Assembly: GCF_027923585.1 (NCBI RefSeq)
Contig: NZ_BRPL01000004.1
Location: 62,001-126,000, forward strand
Source of the DNA: Philodulcilactobacillus myokonensis
GTDB taxonomy: Bacteria; Bacillota; Bacilli; Lactobacillales; Lactobacillaceae
DNA length: 64,000 nt
Direction of reading: 5' to 3'
Shown here in pieces: positions 39,625-49,477 of the stretch. Position 1 is the first letter of the stretch; each line of letters starts with the position of its first letter. The notes beneath the pieces are model-generated. The model made no database searches, was not told the origin of the DNA, and saw nothing but the letters and a program-made list of their open reading frames with translations. A program made the translations under genes and the position numbers.

Positions 39625-39697
39625 TGCAACAGTTAAAAATTTACTAATGCAAATGTTATCTAATTCTTATTAAAATAAATGAAAGGTCGTTTTGTTA

Positions 39698-39766
39698 ATG
39701 ATTAAGTTATTTAGACATCGTTTTAATACATATTATCGCAATTTCGCAGCAAAGTATTATCGATAG
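39698..39766 (+). CDS. Leader peptide rich in Tyr and Phe codons
   Basis: A 22-codon ORF with ATG 39698 and a GAAAGGTCG ribosome binding site about eight bases upstream. It contains four Tyr codons in two TAT-TAT pairs (codons 12-13 and 20-21) and three Phe codons (5, 9 and 16), seven of 22 residues. The other residues are mainly Arg, Lys, Asn and Ala. It stops at TAG 39764, exactly where the first arm of the downstream hairpin chain begins. Composition and position before an aromatic amino acid operon are those of an attenuation leader peptide sensing charged tRNA-Tyr and tRNA-Phe. Confidence 0.8.
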   Translation: MIKLFRHRFNTYYRNFAAKYYR

Positions 39767-39960
39767 TACTTGCACTCCTCTTTGGATGCAAGTACTCAAA
39801 GTACTTGTATCTAAGCGGAATTGCTAGTTGTTGCTACTTTCGGTTAGGTACCTATATCTAACCGGTAGCAATTTAAACTAATCATTTAAATTGGATATCT
39901 TTAAATGGCTTAATTTTAGCAAATTAAATGCCGGTTAGATTAAATCTAGCCGGCATTTTT
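39765..39960 (+). promoter_or_regulatory. Attenuator: chain of mutually exclusive hairpins
   Basis: By eye, these helices compete. A (39765-39774) pairs with B (39787-39796), or B extended (39784-39796) pairs with C (39800-39812, 13 pairs including two G-U). H (39807-39817) pairs with D (39841-39851, one mismatch), or D (39831-39847) pairs with E (39858-39871). E (39856-39865) pairs perfectly with F (39931-39940), or F (39926-39940) pairs with G (39944-39958), the terminator. A:B frees H, so H:D and E:F (antiterminator) can form. B:C traps H, so D:E and F:G (terminator) form. A ribosome at the leader stop would mask A and favour termination; one stalled at early Tyr or Phe codons would not. 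No energies were calculated. Confidence 0.72.
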
Positions 39961-39966
39961 ATTTTG
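39926..39966 (+). terminator. Attenuator terminator
   Basis: AAATGCCGGTTAGAT pairs with ATCTAGCCGGCATTT over 15 positions with one G-T pair and a TAA loop, followed by TTATTTT. It lies directly before the ribosome binding site (GGAGGAAT) of the first structural gene. Confidence 0.92.
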
Positions 39967-39978
39967 GAGGAATTATTG

Positions 39979-41193
39979 ATGGATATTACAGGACGAAAAG
40001 TAAATGTGAATCAAATCACAAAAAAACATCGATTAAGTATGAGTCTATTCTTGAATTACTTTGTTCATGGGATGGTATTGGTTGTTTTAACTCAAAACAT
40101 GATGTCATTGGCTCATAGCTGGGAGACGACATTGTCAATTGTTTCATATGTTATTTCTGGAATTGGAATTGGCCGGTTGATTGCATACCCAATTACAGGC
40201 TACTTATCAGATCGAATCAATCGAAAGATATTTATCTTATTTGGGATGCTCTGTTACTTTATCTTTTTAATCGCAACCCCATTTGCTTCTAATTTTGTTC
40301 TTGCATACTTCTTATCAATTTTGTCTGGTTTTGGTAACTCTGCTCTAGATACTGGGACGTACACAACGTTAGTTGAAATTAATCATGGATCTGGACGTGC
40401 CACCGTTTTATTGAAAGCATTCATTTCATTAGGTGATTTTCTATTACCATTAGTGGTTGCATTTCTTTCAAGTGAACATCTATGGTTTGGATTTTCATTT
40501 ATGATTCCAGCAACCGTACTGTTTTTCAATTTTATTAACTTATTAAACATTAAATTTCCTAAGATTAAATCTCAAAATGAAAAGAGCATCACAAGTGATT
40601 GGCATTTAAGTAAACTCCGCCGGGTTGTTTCAACAGCTGCATTGATGGGATATGGTTACACTTCAATGGCATTAATGCTGGTCTTTACTCAATGGATAAC
40701 TTTATATGGTGAAAGGGTATTAAATTTAAATAACCTATCTGCCCATTTCCTACTATCACTTTACAGCATCGGTTCCATCATTGGTGTCATTACTTTGTCC
40801 ATTCTATTAAAACGGGAATCCAGAGAAATTCCACTATTAGTAATTTTAAATTTTGCAACGTTAATTTCATTATTAATTATTTTAATATCTAAACTCACTT
40901 TAATAACTGATGTTGCTAGTATGATATTTGGTTTTTCAGCCGCTGGCGGTGTGATGCAGACTGGCTTAACCATTTTTATGCAGTTATTCCCCAAGCACCG
41001 TGGTGCAATTACAGGTATTTTTTACTTCTTTGGCAGCATTGCTTCGTTAACCATTCCATTAGTAACTGGGATGTTATCCCAACGTGGAATTACGTTTGCA
41101 TTTAATTTTAACTTAATAATTGCTGCGGTTAGCGTTATTTTAGCTTTAATCACCATGCTTTCACTCGGGCAAACTAAGGAGGATACAAAATGA
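39979..41193 (+). CDS. MFS transporter of the aromatic operon
   Basis: The 404-residue protein is a major facilitator with about 12 spans. RLIAYPITGYLSDRINRKIFILFG is the MFS loop 2-3 signature. The start is ATG 39979 after GGAGGAAT; the longer frame from 39928 begins inside the terminator and is rejected. It is the first gene after the attenuator and overlaps chorismate mutase (ATGA). Transport of an aromatic amino acid, shikimate or a related precursor is inferred from context only; direction is unknown. Confidence 0.85.
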   Translation: MDITGRKVNVNQITKKHRLSMSLFLNYFVHGMVLVVLTQNMMSLAHSWETTLSIVSYVISGIGIGRLIAYPITGYLSDRINRKIFILFGMLCYFIFLIATPFASNFVLAYFLSILSGFGNSALDTGTYTTLVEINHGSGRATVLLKAFISLGDFLLPLVVAFLSSEHLWFGFSFMIPATVLFFNFINLLNIKFPKIKSQNEKSITSDWHLSKLRRVVSTAALMGYGYTSMALMLVFTQWITLYGERVLNLNNLSAHFLLSLYSIGSIIGVITLSILLKRESREIPLLVILNFATLISLLIILISKLTLITDVASMIFGFSAAGGVMQTGLTIFMQLFPKHRGAITGIFYFFGSIASLTIPLVTGMLSQRGITFAFNFNLIIAAVSVILALITMLSLGQTKEDTK

Positions 41194-41441
41194 CATTAGA
41201 TCAAAAACGTCAGCAGATTGATCAAATTGATCAACAAATTGTTGAATTATTGGAACAACGGTTTCAAATTGGGAAATCAATTGGCGAATATAAAAAAATA
41301 CATCACCTACCGATTCTTAATACTAACCGCGAATATCAAGTATTGGAACGAATTAATAAAATCGTAAGAAACAAAAGAAACTCAAAACAAATTCAACGAA
41401 TTTTTCGAACTATTATGAATCAAACTAAAACGATTGAATAG
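41190..41441 (+). CDS. Chorismate mutase (AroQ type, monofunctional)
   Basis: The 83-residue all-helical protein matches the AroQ fold: IDQIDQQIVELLEQRFQIGKSIGEYKK contains the catalytic Arg and Lys positions, and NTNREYQVLERI the second helix. It converts chorismate to prephenate, the branch to Phe and Tyr. AAGGAGGA precedes ATG 41190, which overlaps the transporter stop. Confidence 0.9.
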   Translation: MTLDQKRQQIDQIDQQIVELLEQRFQIGKSIGEYKKIHHLPILNTNREYQVLERINKIVRNKRNSKQIQRIFRTIMNQTKTIE

Positions 41442-41454
41442 AGGATGATCATTT

Positions 41455-42621
41455 ATGCATTTTATGACAGCTGGAGAATCACATGGACCAAGTTTAACTG
41501 GAATCTTAGAAGGCATCCCTGCCGGGTTACAATTGAATATTAAATCAATTAATCAAAAATTAGCGGATCGGCAAGGTGGTTATGGACGCGGCAATCGTCA
41601 GAAGATTGAACACGATCAAGTTAAAATTACCGGCGGGGTCAGGCATCAAATCACACTTGGTTCGCCGATTGCTTTAACCATTCTGAATCGTGACCATAAA
41701 CATTGGAAAGAAATTATGGATCCTAATAGTAGTGCAACCTCACAAAATACGCTTAGGAAAGTTACCCGTCCAAGACCAGGTCATGCTGATTTAGTTGGTG
41801 GGATGAAATATCACCATAGGGATTTTAGAAATGTTTTAGAACGTTCATCTGCTAGGGAAACTGCCATGCGGGTTGCCATTGGTGCCATTTGTGAACAATT
41901 ACTTCAGCAGTTAGGGATTCAAATTGTAGGATATGTAAAACAAGTTGGTTCCATTAAAGCCGATCAAAAGCAAAATTTATCAGTTGAACAGATTAACCAT
42001 GAAATTACAAAAAATGATTTAAGAATTTTAAATCAGGAAAAAGTTGAACCGATTCACCATTTAATTGATCGAACAAAGCGGGATGGCGATACCCTTGGTG
42101 GAATTCTGAAGGTAATTGTCGATAATGTTCCCGCAGGTTTAGGTAGTTACGTTAGCTGGGATACTAAATTAGATGGTAAGTTAGCAGCTGCTGTTATGGG
42201 AGTTAATGCAATGAAGGGTGTTGAAATCGGTGAAGGCTTTGAAGCAGCCTCTAAATTTGGCAGTCAAGTCATGGATCCGATTGATTGGCAGAAGAAGAAA
42301 GGGTGGTTTCGTGATTCTGATCACTTAGGCGGTTTTGAAGGCGGGATGACGAATGGGATGCCATTGGTGGTTCAAGCTGCGATGAAACCAATTCCAACGT
42401 TATACAAGCCATTAAAAAGCGTGGATGTCAATACTAAACAAATTTCAAAGGCTAACATTGAGCGTTCAGATGTAACGGCGATTGTTCCGGCGTCAATTGT
42501 CGTTGAAAGTGTTGTTGCCATTGAATTAGCCAAGAGTATTACGGAAACGTTTGATGGCAGTAATATGGATCGTTTAAAACAACAAGTTACCTCTTACAGA
42601 AAAGAACTCTTAAATTTCTAG
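41455..42621 (+). CDS. aroC: AroC, chorismate synthase
   Basis: The 388-residue enzyme turns EPSP into chorismate using reduced FMN. Signatures are MTAGESHGPSL at the start, RPGHADLVGGMKY, RSSARETAMRVAIGA and the C-terminal PASIVVESVVA. GAGGATGA lies upstream of ATG 41455, 13 bases after chorismate mutase. Called aroF in some Gram-positive schemes. Confidence 0.95.
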   Translation: MHFMTAGESHGPSLTGILEGIPAGLQLNIKSINQKLADRQGGYGRGNRQKIEHDQVKITGGVRHQITLGSPIALTILNRDHKHWKEIMDPNSSATSQNTLRKVTRPRPGHADLVGGMKYHHRDFRNVLERSSARETAMRVAIGAICEQLLQQLGIQIVGYVKQVGSIKADQKQNLSVEQINHEITKNDLRILNQEKVEPIHHLIDRTKRDGDTLGGILKVIVDNVPAGLGSYVSWDTKLDGKLAAAVMGVNAMKGVEIGEGFEAASKFGSQVMDPIDWQKKKGWFRDSDHLGGFEGGMTNGMPLVVQAAMKPIPTLYKPLKSVDVNTKQISKANIERSDVTAIVPASIVVESVVAIELAKSITETFDGSNMDRLKQQVTSYRKELLNF

Positions 42622-42629
42622 GTGAATAA

Positions 42630-43931
42630 ATGATGAAAAAATTGATAACTGGAATAAAAAACGGATTACATGGAAAATTAACCATTCCTGGTGATAAAAG
42701 TATTTCACACCGGGCAATTATGATTGGAGCAATCAGCAATGGAATCACTGAAATTAAACACTTCCTTCTTTCAGATGATTGTTTAACTACTGTTCACGCG
42801 TTTCAAGATTTAGGTGTTGATATTGAATGTCATCATAATGAAGTCATTGTTCATGGACGAGGAATTGATAATTTAAAACCGGTTAAACACACCATGAATA
42901 TGGGAAATTCCGGGACAACAACGCGACTATTGAGTGGGATTTTAGCATCGTTACCATTTCAGACAAAGTTAATTGGCGACCAATCTTTGTCTAAGCGGCC
43001 CATGAAAAGAATTAGTGAGCCCCTAAATCAAATGGGAGCAGAAATTCATTTAACAAATGGGCATCTGCCAATGACAATTAATGGGAAGAAACTTCATGCC
43101 ATTCATTACAGGTTGCCAGTGGCAAGTGCTCAGGTGAAGAGTTCAATTATTTTAGCGGCATTGAATGCGGATGCTGATAGTGTGATTGATGAACCACAGT
43201 CTACCCGTGATCATACCGAAAGAATGCTCAATCAATTTAGCCCACAGACAATTATTACTGGATGGCATCAAATTTTTATCAAACATGAGCCAAAATTAAT
43301 TGGCCAAAATCTAACCATTCCAGGGGATATGTCATCAGCTGCTTTCTTTATTGTTGCAGCGACTTTAATTCCTGATTCTCATATTATTTTGAAATCGGTG
43401 GGCATTAATCCAGGTCGATTAGGGTTAGTTCACATTATTCAACGAATGGGAGGTCACGTTGAATTAAAACACCCGTCCAATCCGAATGAACCAATTGCTG
43501 ATTTAGAAATTGAAAGTGTAGAGCATTTAAAACCCATTCATGTTCAACATAATGATATCCCAAGTATGATTGATGAATTACCGTTGGTAGCATTATTAGC
43601 TGCTAAGGCCGATGGCATCAGTACGATTCATGGAGCTGAAGAACTGCGGTTTAAAGAAACCGATCGAATTAAGACAATCGTTTCAGAATTTCAAAAATTA
43701 GGAATTGATATTGAAGAATTAAAAGACGGTTTCAAAATTGATGGCAAAAAATTATGGCATGTTAAAAATTTAAATTTAGATAGCCATCAAGACCATCGAA
43801 TTGGGATGACTTTAGCGATTGCGGCTGGCTTATTACCGAAAACTGCTAATGTCAAACTAAATCATGAAAAGTCAATTGATATTTCATATCCAGAATTTTT
43901 TAATGATTTAAACCGATTAATAACTAAATAA
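42630..43931 (+). CDS. aroA: AroA, EPSP synthase
   Basis: 3-phosphoshikimate 1-carboxyvinyltransferase of 433 residues. Motifs are PGDKSISHRA, the LMGNSGTTTRL-like NMGNSGTTTRLLSG, LPVASAQVKSSI and RFKETDRI. The glyphosate-relevant Gly-Asn-Ser-Gly loop is intact. The gene starts eight bases after aroC; AGGTGA is the ribosome binding site for ATG 42630 or the ATG that follows it. Confidence 0.95.
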   Translation: MMKKLITGIKNGLHGKLTIPGDKSISHRAIMIGAISNGITEIKHFLLSDDCLTTVHAFQDLGVDIECHHNEVIVHGRGIDNLKPVKHTMNMGNSGTTTRLLSGILASLPFQTKLIGDQSLSKRPMKRISEPLNQMGAEIHLTNGHLPMTINGKKLHAIHYRLPVASAQVKSSIILAALNADADSVIDEPQSTRDHTERMLNQFSPQTIITGWHQIFIKHEPKLIGQNLTIPGDMSSAAFFIVAATLIPDSHIILKSVGINPGRLGLVHIIQRMGGHVELKHPSNPNEPIADLEIESVEHLKPIHVQHNDIPSMIDELPLVALLAAKADGISTIHGAEELRFKETDRIKTIVSEFQKLGIDIEELKDGFKIDGKKLWHVKNLNLDSHQDHRIGMTLAIAAGLLPKTANVKLNHEKSIDISYPEFFNDLNRLITK

Positions 43932-43945
43932 TGGGGATGATTAAA

Positions 43946-44804
43946 GTGAAAACTTGTTTTTATTAGTGGTTTAGGTTTAATTGGTAGTTCCATTGCAAGA
44001 ATAATTAAACAGAATCATTCTAATGTTGATATCATTGGCTATGATTTAAACCAAGCAAATGAAAGATACTTATTGAATCAGCATTTGATTGACCAATCCA
44101 TGACTTTTCAAAAAGCATCACAAATTGCAGATATCATTATTTTAGCGGGTCCCGTTAACGTTATTTTGAGGCAAATCCATGTTTTATCAAATTTAAAATT
44201 AAAATCCAATGTTTTAATAACCGATGTTGGAAGTACGAAAACATCAATTTTGAAACAATCAAAGCAACTGACTGAACAGGGCATTCATTTTCTTGGTGGG
44301 CATCCAATGGCTGGATCCCAAAAATCCGGCAGTAAAGCTGGCTGGGTAAATTTATTCAATCATACTACTTATTTTTTAGTGCGATCGAATGCAACGATTA
44401 AGCAAATCAAATTATTCAAATCATTACTTGATAATCATCACATTCATTTTGTTTTTGTATCCGCATTTAAACATGATCAAATGGTTGGCTACATCAGCCA
44501 TCTTCCCCATGCTCTAGCATTTTCATTAGTCCATTTAATGGATCAGAAACTCCATGGTGAATTGAAACAAATCCAAGTGGGTGGTGGATTGTTAAGCACC
44601 ACTAGGATTGCAGCAGCAGATCCAACCATGTGGTCCAATATTTTTATGAATAATAAAAATGATCTAATAAAACAAATCGATGATTTTCAGAAGCAGTTAA
44701 ATGATTTAAAAATGATACTTCAAAAGCAGAACCCAAAACAAATTAAACAATATTTAGAACAGTCTCAAAATATTAGGCAACGCATGGATTGGAGGAAGTC
44801 ATGA
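43946..44804 (+). pseudogene. tyrA: TyrA, prephenate dehydrogenase, with 5' frameshift
   Basis: From GTG 43946 the frame reads three codons (MKT-like) and then runs to a TAG. One base on, a second frame reads VFISGLGLIGSSIARIIK, the NAD-binding N-terminus of prephenate dehydrogenase, and continues to 44804 with GGHPMAGSQKSG, HDQMVGYISHLPH and FRIA-like TTRIAAADPTMW motifs. One extra T in the ACTTGTTTTT run at 43953-43961 explains the shift. In the long frame no ATG, GTG or TTG precedes the GxGxxG loop; the first possible start (44073) would remove it. So the enzyme is probably inactive, unless there is slippage or an error. Confidence 0.85.
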
Positions 44805-45316
44805 TGAAAGTAATCTTAATTGGTTTTATGGGGTGTGGAAAAACGACTGTTGGTAGGGAATTAGCAAAGCAAATGAATTTACCGCAATACGATTTAGATC
44901 AAATGATAGTTAAAAACTTGAATGAACCCATTTCAAATTTCTTTAAAGAAAAAGGTGAAGCAGCTTTTCGTGACTTTGAACATCAAATGTTGAATAAATC
45001 ATTATCTTTAGATGGTATTTTGTCCACTGGTGGTGGAACGCCGGTCCAGAAACAAAATCAGAATTTATTTCATCAAACTAGCGTCCCCATCATGATGCTT
45101 GATGCTTCCGATGACGTGATTAGAAAACGGCTTTCGTTGGATGCTAACCGTCCGATAGTTGAAAAATTAGGGATGGATGGAATTATCAAATTAAAGCACC
45201 AACGGGATGCAACTTACCGGATGATTAGCAACCAGATTATTTTAACCGACCATAAATCACCATTAACGATTGCTAAAAAAATTATTGAAAATTTAAAAAA
45301 GGAATCTTCAAAATGA
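44801..45316 (+). CDS. aroK: AroK, shikimate kinase
   Basis: The 171-residue kinase phosphorylates shikimate. ILIGFMGCGKTTVGRELA is the Walker A loop, followed by a DLDQMI substrate site, FRDFE, STGGGTPV, and a NRPIVEKLG lid region. ATG 44801 after GGAGGAAG overlaps the tyrA stop (ATGA). Confidence 0.94.
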   Translation: MMKVILIGFMGCGKTTVGRELAKQMNLPQYDLDQMIVKNLNEPISNFFKEKGEAAFRDFEHQMLNKSLSLDGILSTGGGTPVQKQNQNLFHQTSVPIMMLDASDDVIRKRLSLDANRPIVEKLGMDGIIKLKHQRDATYRMISNQIILTDHKSPLTIAKKIIENLKKESSK

Positions 45317-46209
45317 CAGAAAGAATTGATGGACATACAATTTTAATTGGATTGATGGCATACCCAATTCGGCACAGCAAATCACCATTAATGCATAATA
45401 GTGCATTTGAAAAATTAGGCTTGAATTATGTCTACTTAGTTTTTGATATTGATGGGGATCATATTGCAGATGGAATCAAAGCATTAAGAACGCTTGGCAT
45501 GCGAGGATCCAATATTTCGATGCCAAATAAACAAAGGGTTTTGCCATACTTGGATAAATTAGATCGAACGTCTCAATTAACCCGTTCGGTGAACACCATT
45601 GTGAATGATCATGGCGCTTTAACTGGATATACGACTGATGGAACAGGCTTTATGCAGTCATTAAAGGATGAAAATTTAAATATTATTGGTAAGAAAATGG
45701 TTTTAACCGGTGCTGGTGGCGCCGGAACCCCCATTGCGATTCAAACTGCTTTAGATGGGGTTAGTGAAATTAGTATCTTTAATAACGCAAATGATGATAA
45801 ATGGGAGAATGCAAAACGAAACGTTCATATTATTAATGAACACACTAATTGTCATGCAACTTTATTTGACTTAAAAGACCGTTCCAGTTTGAAGAATGAA
45901 ATCGGAAAATGTGATATTTATTGCGATGCGACAGCAGTTGGGATGAAACCACTTCAAGATCAGACTTTGATATCTGATCCTAGCTGGTTTCATAAGGATA
46001 TGATTGTTTTTGATACTGTTTATGCACCGTTAGAAACAAAACTAATGAAAGTGGCTAAAAAAGCCCATGTTAAACATGTTTTGAATGGGTTAGGAATGAT
46101 GCTAGAACAAGGTGCTGCCGCTTTTAAACTGTGGACTGGGAAAGAAATGCCAGTTGATTACATTCATAAAATTTTGTTTGATAGCGAAAGTGATAAAAAT
46201 GAAAGTTAA
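45313..46209 (+). CDS. aroE: Shikimate dehydrogenase (quinate/shikimate, YdiB-like)
   Basis: The 298-residue enzyme reduces 3-dehydroshikimate. PIRHSKSPLMHN binds the substrate; SNISMPNKQRV holds the catalytic Lys, and the NADP/NAD fold GAGGAGTPIAIQ follows. The SMPNKQ version of the catalytic motif is that of YdiB-like dehydrogenases, where typical AroE reads TxPxK. So quinate could also be a substrate. ATG 45313 overlaps the aroK stop. Confidence 0.9.
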   Translation: MTERIDGHTILIGLMAYPIRHSKSPLMHNSAFEKLGLNYVYLVFDIDGDHIADGIKALRTLGMRGSNISMPNKQRVLPYLDKLDRTSQLTRSVNTIVNDHGALTGYTTDGTGFMQSLKDENLNIIGKKMVLTGAGGAGTPIAIQTALDGVSEISIFNNANDDKWENAKRNVHIINEHTNCHATLFDLKDRSSLKNEIGKCDIYCDATAVGMKPLQDQTLISDPSWFHKDMIVFDTVYAPLETKLMKVAKKAHVKHVLNGLGMMLEQGAAAFKLWTGKEMPVDYIHKILFDSESDKNES

Positions 46210-46942
46210 AAACTTGAAAATTGGGTCAGGAAAACCAAAAATTGCTGTTCCCATAACCGGTAGTACAACCGATGAAATATTGAAACAACTTAATTTAATT
46301 TTGAAACAGAATGACTTTGATTTAATTGAATGGCGGATTGATTTTTGGAAGCAATTTAATGATGTTAATGAATTTAATTATGTTGCACAAATGATTTCCG
46401 AAAAATTAGAAGCAATTCCATTATTGATTACTTTTAGGAGTTTTAATGAAGGCGGTCAAACTAAATTAACTGAAGAACAGTATGCAAAAGTAATTCATAA
46501 TATTATTAATTGCCGAGTGGCTGATTTAATTGATATTGAACTAATGCATCCTAAAAAATTAATCTTGCCATTAATTCATTTAGCTCAAAATCAAAATATT
46601 AAGGTCATTCAAAGTTATCATAATTTTAAAATCACACCTGAAAAATCAGAGATGTTAGAAAAACTTGATCAAATGCAATTAAATCATGTTGATATTGCTA
46701 AAATTGCTGTCATGCCACATACTTCGGATGATATTTTAAATTTACTTGAAGTTTCGAACTCATTTCACCATGAATCGAATCTTCCACTAATTTCAATGTC
46801 AATGGGCAATTTGGGAAAAATCACACGCGTTAGTGGTCAACTCTTCGGATCATGTATTACGTTTGGAACGGTCGGAAATTCTTCAGCACCTGGACAAATC
46901 AATTGTGAAATATTAAATCAATTTCTAAACACTTTGAATTAA
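46199..46942 (+). CDS. aroD: AroD, 3-dehydroquinate dehydratase type I
   Basis: The 247-residue class I enzyme dehydrates 3-dehydroquinate through a Schiff base. The catalytic His is in QSYHNFK and the Schiff-base Lys in VDIAKIAVMP. EWRIDFW and SMGNLGKITRVSG also fit. The frame extends upstream to 46112 within aroE, but ATG 46199, overlapping the aroE end, gives the normal length. It is the last gene of the operon. aroB and DAHP synthase are not in this window. Confidence 0.93.
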   Translation: MKVKNLKIGSGKPKIAVPITGSTTDEILKQLNLILKQNDFDLIEWRIDFWKQFNDVNEFNYVAQMISEKLEAIPLLITFRSFNEGGQTKLTEEQYAKVIHNIINCRVADLIDIELMHPKKLILPLIHLAQNQNIKVIQSYHNFKITPEKSEMLEKLDQMQLNHVDIAKIAVMPHTSDDILNLLEVSNSFHHESNLPLISMSMGNLGKITRVSGQLFGSCITFGTVGNSSAPGQINCEILNQFLNTLN

Positions 46943-48367: not shown

Positions 48368-48640
48368 AATTAAGCAATGAAAAGATAAGTAAAGAATTGA
48401 AAACTTCTAGAAAGCTTACGGTTGATGGAAGTAAGTAGCGGACATTTCTTGAAAATGGTCTTCGAGCTTTTATACGGATAAGCTCAATGCAAGTCCGTAT
48501 CGGGAACGCCTGATATCGCGTTAATGAGTCTTAATGGTTCTAAGAATGAAGGTAAATTAGCTTAAAGTTAATTTACGAATCAAAGGTGGCACAGCGAAGC
48601 ATTCGCCCTTTCTATATGAAAGGACGGATGCTTTTTTATT
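48368..48640 (+). ncRNA. T-box leader 1 (Met specifier) upstream of luxS
   Basis: The T-box sequence AAAGGTGGCACAGCG is at 48582-48596. A terminator follows (AGCATTCGCCCTTTC stem, T-run, 48598-48637). In stem I, AAAGAA after AAGT pairs with TTTCTT at 48445-48450, and the following GAAAATGG places ATG 48455-48457 in the specifier position. So it should sense uncharged tRNA-Met. It is the first of two leaders in series before luxS. Confidence 0.88.
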
Positions 48641-49003: not shown

Positions 49004-49477
49004 ATGGGTAAAGTTGAAAGTTTTTCATTAGATCATACAAAGGTTAAGGCACCATACGTTCGTTTGATTGCAGCACAAAAAGGACCAAAGGGTGACATGG
49101 TTTCAAATTTTGATTTGAGATTAGTCCAACCCAATCAAAATGCAATTCCAACCGGTGGGTTGCACACGATTGAACATTTATTAGCATCATTACTTCGTGA
49201 CCGCTTATCAGGATATATTGATTGCTCACCATTTGGTTGCCGAACCGGATTTCACTTAATTTTATGGGGTGAACATTCAACTACTGAAGTTGGCAAAGCA
49301 TTAAAAGATGCATTAGGAGTAATTGCTAATGATATTCAATGGAAAGATGTTCCAGCCGTTAGTAAATATAGTTGTGGTAACTACCGTGATCATTCCCTCT
49401 TCTCTGCTAAGGAATGGTCGAAAACAGTATTAGATCAAGGTATTAGTTCCGATCCATACGTTCGAAAATTAATTTAA
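49004..49477 (+). CDS. luxS: LuxS, S-ribosylhomocysteine lyase
   Basis: The 157-residue metalloenzyme cleaves S-ribosylhomocysteine to homocysteine and the AI-2 precursor DPD, within the activated methyl cycle. HTIEH at residues 54-58 supplies the metal His ligands, [11 protein letters not shown] contains the catalytic Cys near 84, and YSCGNYRDH the third ligand. GAAAGGAT precedes ATG 49004. It is controlled by tandem Met T-boxes, so it is expressed as part of methionine metabolism. Confidence 0.96.

Follow-up and report, generated by a model that had tools for sequence, protein, structure and literature searches.

The regulated operon and its leader region

The window analysed in this work is a stretch of 64,000 nucleotides of DNA from Philodulcilactobacillus myokonensis. 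An operon on its plus strand begins with a gene for an MFS transporter (39979..41193; Pfam MFS_1, 5e-37), which is followed by a cluster of genes for chorismate mutase, aroC, aroA, tyrA, aroK, aroE, and aroD (41190..46942). The initial annotation was correct in placing a seven-enzyme aromatic cluster here, from chorismate mutase to aroD, and the first gene of the operon is the transporter gene. The strong terminator that had been annotated upstream of the cluster was identified at 39926-39958, and it consists of a 15-bp stem and a T tract (one terminator found, 0.2 expected from shuffling).

A leader ORF, MIKLFRHRFNTYYRNFAAKYYR*, is located at 39698..39766 on the plus strand. It was read from the window as 22 codons from the ATG at 39698 to the stop codon at 39764-39766, and it encodes four Tyr residues as two TAT-TAT pairs (codons 12-13 and 20-21) and three Phe residues. 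A Shine-Dalgarno-like GAAAGG (39681..39686, plus strand) precedes it with a spacing of 11 nt in the window, which is rather long, and homologues exhibit AAGGA or GGAGG at the same place. The ribosome binding site, the seven Tyr/Phe codons, and the two TAT-TAT pairs that had been claimed are all present. As expected of an attenuator, the ORF combines a ribosome binding site with codons for the regulated amino acid. The first Tyr-Tyr pair (39731..39736, plus strand) likely represents the sensing codons, since residues -7 and -8 from the stop are aromatic in 92-94% of 64 distinct homologous peptides.

No Rfam family reached its threshold at the window leader, and no T-box, with its Stem I, specifier loop, and T-box bulge, was matched there. 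The gathering threshold of RF02863 (sRNA_2410) was not reached on the window. Sub-threshold matches, such as the one to the trpB motif RF04312 (34 bits, cutoff 59) at 39883-39965, overlap the terminator. The only T-box in the window (48368-48613, 105 bits) is flanked by an aminotransferase gene and, at 49004, by a luxS-like gene.

Homologous leaders and their distribution

A DNA similarity search with the leader returned chance fragments only. The window genome is the sole representative of its genus among the genomes compared. Relatives of the MFS gene were identified in 143 of the 398 Lactobacillaceae genomes, the nearest of them in Apilactobacillus, and homologous leaders are located before this gene at 73 Lactobacillaceae loci. 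These leaders encode 64 distinct peptides with the consensus YYYGFAYFR*, and the Apilactobacillus peptide is MINLMNNYYSNFAYFI. Counted from the peptide end, residues -2, -3, -7, and -8 are aromatic in 92-94% of the distinct peptides, and residues -1, -10, and -12 are almost never aromatic. The aromatic codons are in register with synonymous variation (TAT 180, TAC 49, TTT 113, and TTC 22). Beyond the aromatic residues, the leaders keep a C-terminal (G/S)xxx(R/K)* pattern. In operons whose first gene is aroE or chorismate mutase, and not the MFS gene, this first gene is the one preceded by the leader (L141, L243-L245, L247, L252, and L253).

A second copy of the element was observed in Apilactobacillus timberlakei (L009:3750-4000), directly 5' of a prephenate dehydratase-like gene. 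Its leader, MNNLLGNINKNFEDNFAYFI, exhibits Phe rather than Tyr codons.

In Lactobacillaceae, the covariance model of the leader (R1) matches 225 of 398 genomes from 30 of 40 genera. In the Lactobacillales set, it matches 205 of 395 genomes from 58 of 81 genera, and a genome has up to five copies. The window genome has one copy because its second weak match (39877-39960) is only the terminator region. A broader model (R2), the source alignment of which contains seven low-scoring chance rows, matches 27 of 300 class-wide genomes, and five of these are outside Lactobacillales. Transketolase-like and DAHP-synthase-like genes, assigned by eye, were observed behind Tyr/Phe leaders at two loci outside the order (L237 and L240).

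An ORF with sensing codons that is preceded by a Shine-Dalgarno sequence is present at 125 of the 134 loci found with the RNA model. Most of the remaining nine loci also have such an ORF, with a start that is weaker or unscored. The initial annotation had named hairpins kept without the ORF as evidence against peptide sensing. This combination was sought and was not found, with one possible exception (L144), where the hairpins are retained and the leader frame seems to be disrupted or to have no clear ribosome binding site ahead of its start. L144 is possibly a decaying copy.

Helices of the leader RNA

The leader RNA exhibits a folding energy of -99.5 kcal/mol compared to -51.0 kcal/mol for its shuffles (z -11.1). 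Its segments, all on the plus strand, form the chain of helices A:B, B:C, C:H, H:D, D:F, and F:G, in addition to the helix L:L'. Segment L, GCAATTTCGC (39738..39747), lies inside the ORF (codons 14-17) and forms 10 bp in the window with segment L', GCGGAATTGC (39815..39824). Segment A (39765..39774) begins within the stop codon and pairs with segment B (39782..39796, core 39787-39796). Segment C (39800..39814) pairs through its 5' half with B and through its 3' half with segment H (39841..39851), where 39844-39851 is paired with 39807-39814. H pairs alternatively with segment D (39854..39866). D in turn pairs with segment F (39926..39940) as the antiterminator, which is a helix of 9 bp (39857-39865 with 39931-39939). 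F is also the 5' arm of the terminator, the 3' arm of which is segment G (39944..39958), followed by the T tract. The antiterminator and terminator helices are mutually exclusive, as in an attenuator. The free window RNA folds exactly as L:L', B:C, H:D, and F:G, which is the default OFF state.

The helices A:B, B:C, H:D, and F:G had already been proposed in the initial annotation, which overlooked C:H and L:L'. Its segment E, with the helices D:E and E:F, was dropped as E is not conserved, and D pairs directly with F. An additional hairpin between D and F was read by eye in the Apilactobacillus sequence, and it would lengthen the relay by two with its parity unchanged.

The helices can be arranged into an OFF set (L:L', B:C, H:D, and the terminator F:G) and an ON set (A:B, C:H, and the antiterminator D:F) that would represent the two states of the switch. 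Covariation was examined by a partner-swap test on 49 nonredundant homologues, where the pairing energy of a segment with its own partner was compared to that with the partners of other species. The z values are -8.2 for L:L', -11.1 for A:B, -10.8 for B:C, -7.4 for C:H, -8.8 for H:D, -7.6 for D:F, and -18.1 for F:G, and the observed value was reached in 0 of 2000 permutations for each of the seven helices. Seven unrelated segment combinations used as controls exhibit absolute z values of at most 1.4.

Pairs were also counted on the plain MAFFT alignment A1. The pairs are formed in 87.9% (ON set) and 87.7% (OFF set) of cases compared to 28-43% for slid versions. Changes on both sides were found in 22 of 27 pairs of the ON set, 26 of 33 pairs of the OFF set, and 9 of 10 pairs of L:L', and the cells altered on both sides number 148 and 151 for the two alternative sets. 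The alignment of relatives in Lactobacillaceae that had been suggested as a check has yielded both conserved Tyr/Phe codons and compensatory changes. For an independent set from other families, the windows of which were taken from an alignment that had been fitted to the covariance model, the swap test gave z values of -12.9 (L:L'), -12.7 (A:B), -4.3 (B:C), and -14.5 (H:D). C:H is uninformative in those families because it is invariant there.

Leader codons and the classes of regulated genes

The 134 loci found with the model exhibit leaders of two types, Ile/Leu/Val or aromatic. Gene identities at these loci were established for representatives and were assigned to the others by similarity to the representatives. 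Ile/Leu/Val leaders (for example AIIISIIIR, IIISIIR, NIISIIR, LLISVIR, and LLLLSLIIR) precede genes for branched-chain amino acid (BCAA)-binding proteins (9), the branched-chain aminotransferase ilvE (4), threonine dehydratase ilvA (3), and acetolactate synthase ilvB (2). Aromatic leaders precede MFS/aro operons, TrpX-family binding proteins, aroE, prephenate dehydratase, chorismate mutase operons, NhaC, permeases, and others. An Ile/Leu/Val leader is present at 18 of 18 BCAA genes and at 0 of 115 other genes, all of which have aromatic leaders (p about 1e-22, a value that overstates independence because the loci are related). Within the aromatic type, several copies before prephenate dehydratase exhibit Phe rather than Tyr: TTAFFGFANFR (L130), NTFFFSDFR (L242), and NFEDNFAYFI (L009).

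Downstream of the stop codon, the RNA identity is 59.4% between the two types compared to 59.7% within the aromatic type. The identity of the codons is 55.0% between types compared to 66.1-70.3%. Across types, the RNA body is thus alike and the codons are not, and a single RNA body is combined with different sensing codons. The regulatory codons are conserved as codons and matched to gene function, as in an attenuator. The peptide-based attenuation proposed in the initial annotation is thus supported by aromatic codons in register and by a codon class that follows the gene class.

TrpX-family genes were observed at 41 loci of the order (for example L159, L166, and L175), forty of them with Tyr/Phe leaders. 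TrpX of Streptococcus suis has been shown to serve tryptophan and is under a T-box (PMC9382623). The TrpX-family paralogues behind Tyr/Phe leaders may take up Tyr/Phe. A weak relative of the element with a Trp leader, MKLFYAYQVTAWQNWRR, was observed in the first 160 bases of L254 (G399) on the minus strand, before a TrpX-like binding protein and with an aroE copy at a distance of about 3 kb. It is possibly a tryptophan version. At L177, a D-2-hydroxyacid dehydrogenase gene is located behind the Phe-type leader VFFNSNFR, and its product is a candidate phenyllactate dehydrogenase.

Proposed mechanism and folding simulations

The element is very probably a ribosome-mediated transcription attenuator that senses Tyr (and Phe) through its leader codons and relays the signal through mutually exclusive helices. 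With enough charged tRNA, the ribosome would reach the stop codon and cover A, after which B:C, H:D, and F:G would form and transcription would stop. If the ribosome instead paused at the first run of Tyr codons, it would cover L and leave A free for A:B. C would then take H, D would take F, and the operon would be read. The direction of this logic, where masking of A at the stop codon leads to termination and an early stall leads through A:B to readthrough, is that of the initial annotation. Its middle part was revised to C:H followed by D:F instead of H:D and E:F. L:L' would probably lock the OFF state when no ribosome is on the sensing codons. L adjoins these codons and L:L' covaries strongly, which suggests a lock that would be opened only by a ribosome paused there.

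The relay was simulated with a greedy co-transcriptional model that assumes ribosome footprints and excludes pseudoknots. In the window, a ribosome at the stop codon gave B:C and the terminator at all thresholds tried. With a stall at Tyr13, A:B, C:H, and D:F formed when the barrier limit was 8 or 10 and did not form when it was 6. A stall at Tyr12 gave the terminator, and B:C and H:D always remained with stalls at Tyr20 and Tyr21. The ribosome-free window RNA formed the antiterminator in one setting and, when the step was coarser, the terminator. Among the 49 homologues, D:F was formed in 24 with the stall compared to four with the ribosome at the stop codon (p 1e-5) and 12 without a ribosome (p 0.02). 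Co-transcriptional folding, which had been suggested as a check, thus agrees in direction, but half of the homologues do not form D:F on the stall and the Tyr12 stall leads to the terminator. The greedy model hints at the direction of the switch and is not proof of it. Masking of L alone had almost no effect (D:F in 14 of 49 homologues compared to 12 of 49 without a ribosome). It does not mimic the stalled ribosome, so the lock is presented here as a proposed function of L:L'.

When masks were applied in equilibrium folding, the terminator was favoured in every case, so this approach cannot decide the question. With Tyr13 masked, the ON set is at about -62 kcal/mol compared to -85 kcal/mol. 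In no case was the ON set the state at equilibrium, so readthrough would have to be kinetic.

Discussion

Other explanations can be weighed against the ribosome-mediated attenuator. The leader might be an aptamer riboswitch for aromatic amino acids or their precursors, with an incidental ORF. The RNA part is strongly structured, and related RNAs before Streptococcus agalactiae ABC transporters have been interpreted in this way (PMC4448216). However, one RNA body serves both BCAA and aromatic genes and only the codons track the amino acid, which favours codon sensing over a small-molecule aptamer, and the ORF is retained with its Shine-Dalgarno sequence. The aptamer is thus very unlikely. Much the same low probability is given to a TnaC-like arrest peptide, where the free amino acid would stall the ribosome at the end of the leader, A would be masked, and transcription would terminate. 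A ribosome held at the stop codon would indeed yield the OFF state, and (G/S)xxx(R/K)* is conserved besides the aromatic residues, but the sensing side chains are wholly swapped in the same frame (YYFSYFR, IIISIIR, and LLISVIR). The conserved Gly/Ser codon lies in L:L', so its conservation is explained without arrest.

A terminator and a leader peptide would be enough for simple attenuation, as in Rli60 of Listeria (PMC5864092). The element could accordingly be a trp-type four-segment attenuator, or the earlier chain with segment E, the other pairing being due to chance. This is likewise very unlikely, since covariation in homologues extends to L:L' and to each of the six chained helices, and E is not conserved. 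T-boxes are used by the aromatic genes of related Firmicutes (PMC2494555), but no T-box or other Rfam family reached its threshold on the window leader or on the tested Lactobacillaceae homologues, and a T-box or protein-bound leader is extremely unlikely. The ribosome-mediated attenuator is the explanation that we retain.

Accounts of how Lactobacillales control amino acid biosynthesis usually centre on T-boxes, CodY, and repressors. The his, phe, and trp attenuators of E. coli combine a codon-sensing leader peptide with alternative helices, and the his attenuator has a longer chain. The stalled ribosome masks segment 1 in those attenuators, whereas in the present element A would be masked by a ribosome at the stop codon and left free by a stalled one.

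Leader-peptide attenuation of BCAA genes has been supported experimentally for Rli60 of Listeria monocytogenes and ilv-leu of Staphylococcus aureus and has been predicted in Lactococcus and Streptococcus (PMC5864092, PMC5794164). The prediction for the Lactococcus lactis ilv leader is credited to Godon (1992) in those citing papers. Rli60 and S. aureus ilv-leu are similar to the present element in having a leader peptide with BCAA codons and in occurring in Firmicutes. Rli60, however, consists of four segments (PMC5864092), and the relay chain and L:L' are undescribed in both systems. An earlier survey reported leader peptides for hisS-family genes in Firmicutes and noted that, apart from ermC, it knew of no previous demonstration in this group (PMC2965389).

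The findings in this work also touch on gbs2033 and gbs1262 of Streptococcus agalactiae, orphan 'riboswitches' before paralogous ABC transporters that are conserved in Lactobacillales (Rosinski-Chupin, 2015; PMC4448216). In that work, these potential elements were presented as novel riboswitches for aromatic amino acids, and premature termination was detected by RNA-seq. The gbs2033 element is also located before the aroFBC-tyrA operon of E. faecium (PMC4448216). Their gene settings agree with those of the present element, to which they are likened by settings and not by sequence. That report reads an aptamer, and the word 'peptide' is absent from its text (PMC4448216), whereas the present element would read codons. 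The Rfam family RF02863 (Enterococcus sRNA 2410) spans the terminated leader at two loci, L202 (before aroE, NNYYFSYFR) and L183 (before prephenate dehydratase), and it was below threshold on the 18 other loci of the order tested. It is catalogued as a small RNA gene, whereas the present element is a leader. As the family coincides with the terminated leader at L202 and L183, this sRNA is probably an attenuation product.

The initial annotation had suggested that the attenuator may be undescribed, which holds only in part. A related RNA has been seen in streptococci as an orphan riboswitch (PMC4448216), but no literature on the leader peptides of the element was found in a search that covered few subscription journals. 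The element apparently represents ribosome-mediated attenuation across the order, with an architecture and modularity for which this search yielded no description. We give about an even chance to a more specific proposal, an order-wide attenuator class where one RNA body is re-addressed among Tyr, Phe, Ile, Leu, and perhaps Trp by a few codon swaps, and where L:L' would make it a position detector that is ON only when L is covered and A is free (it would stay OFF if the ribosome were absent, stalled early, or at the stop codon).

These findings indicate a widespread modular codon-reading switch in Lactobacillales and offer a mechanism for the streptococcal orphan 'riboswitches' and an Enterococcus 'sRNA'. 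The leader codons would predict the substrates of many transporters. As a regulatory part, the element might also be given a new amino acid specificity through codon changes alone.
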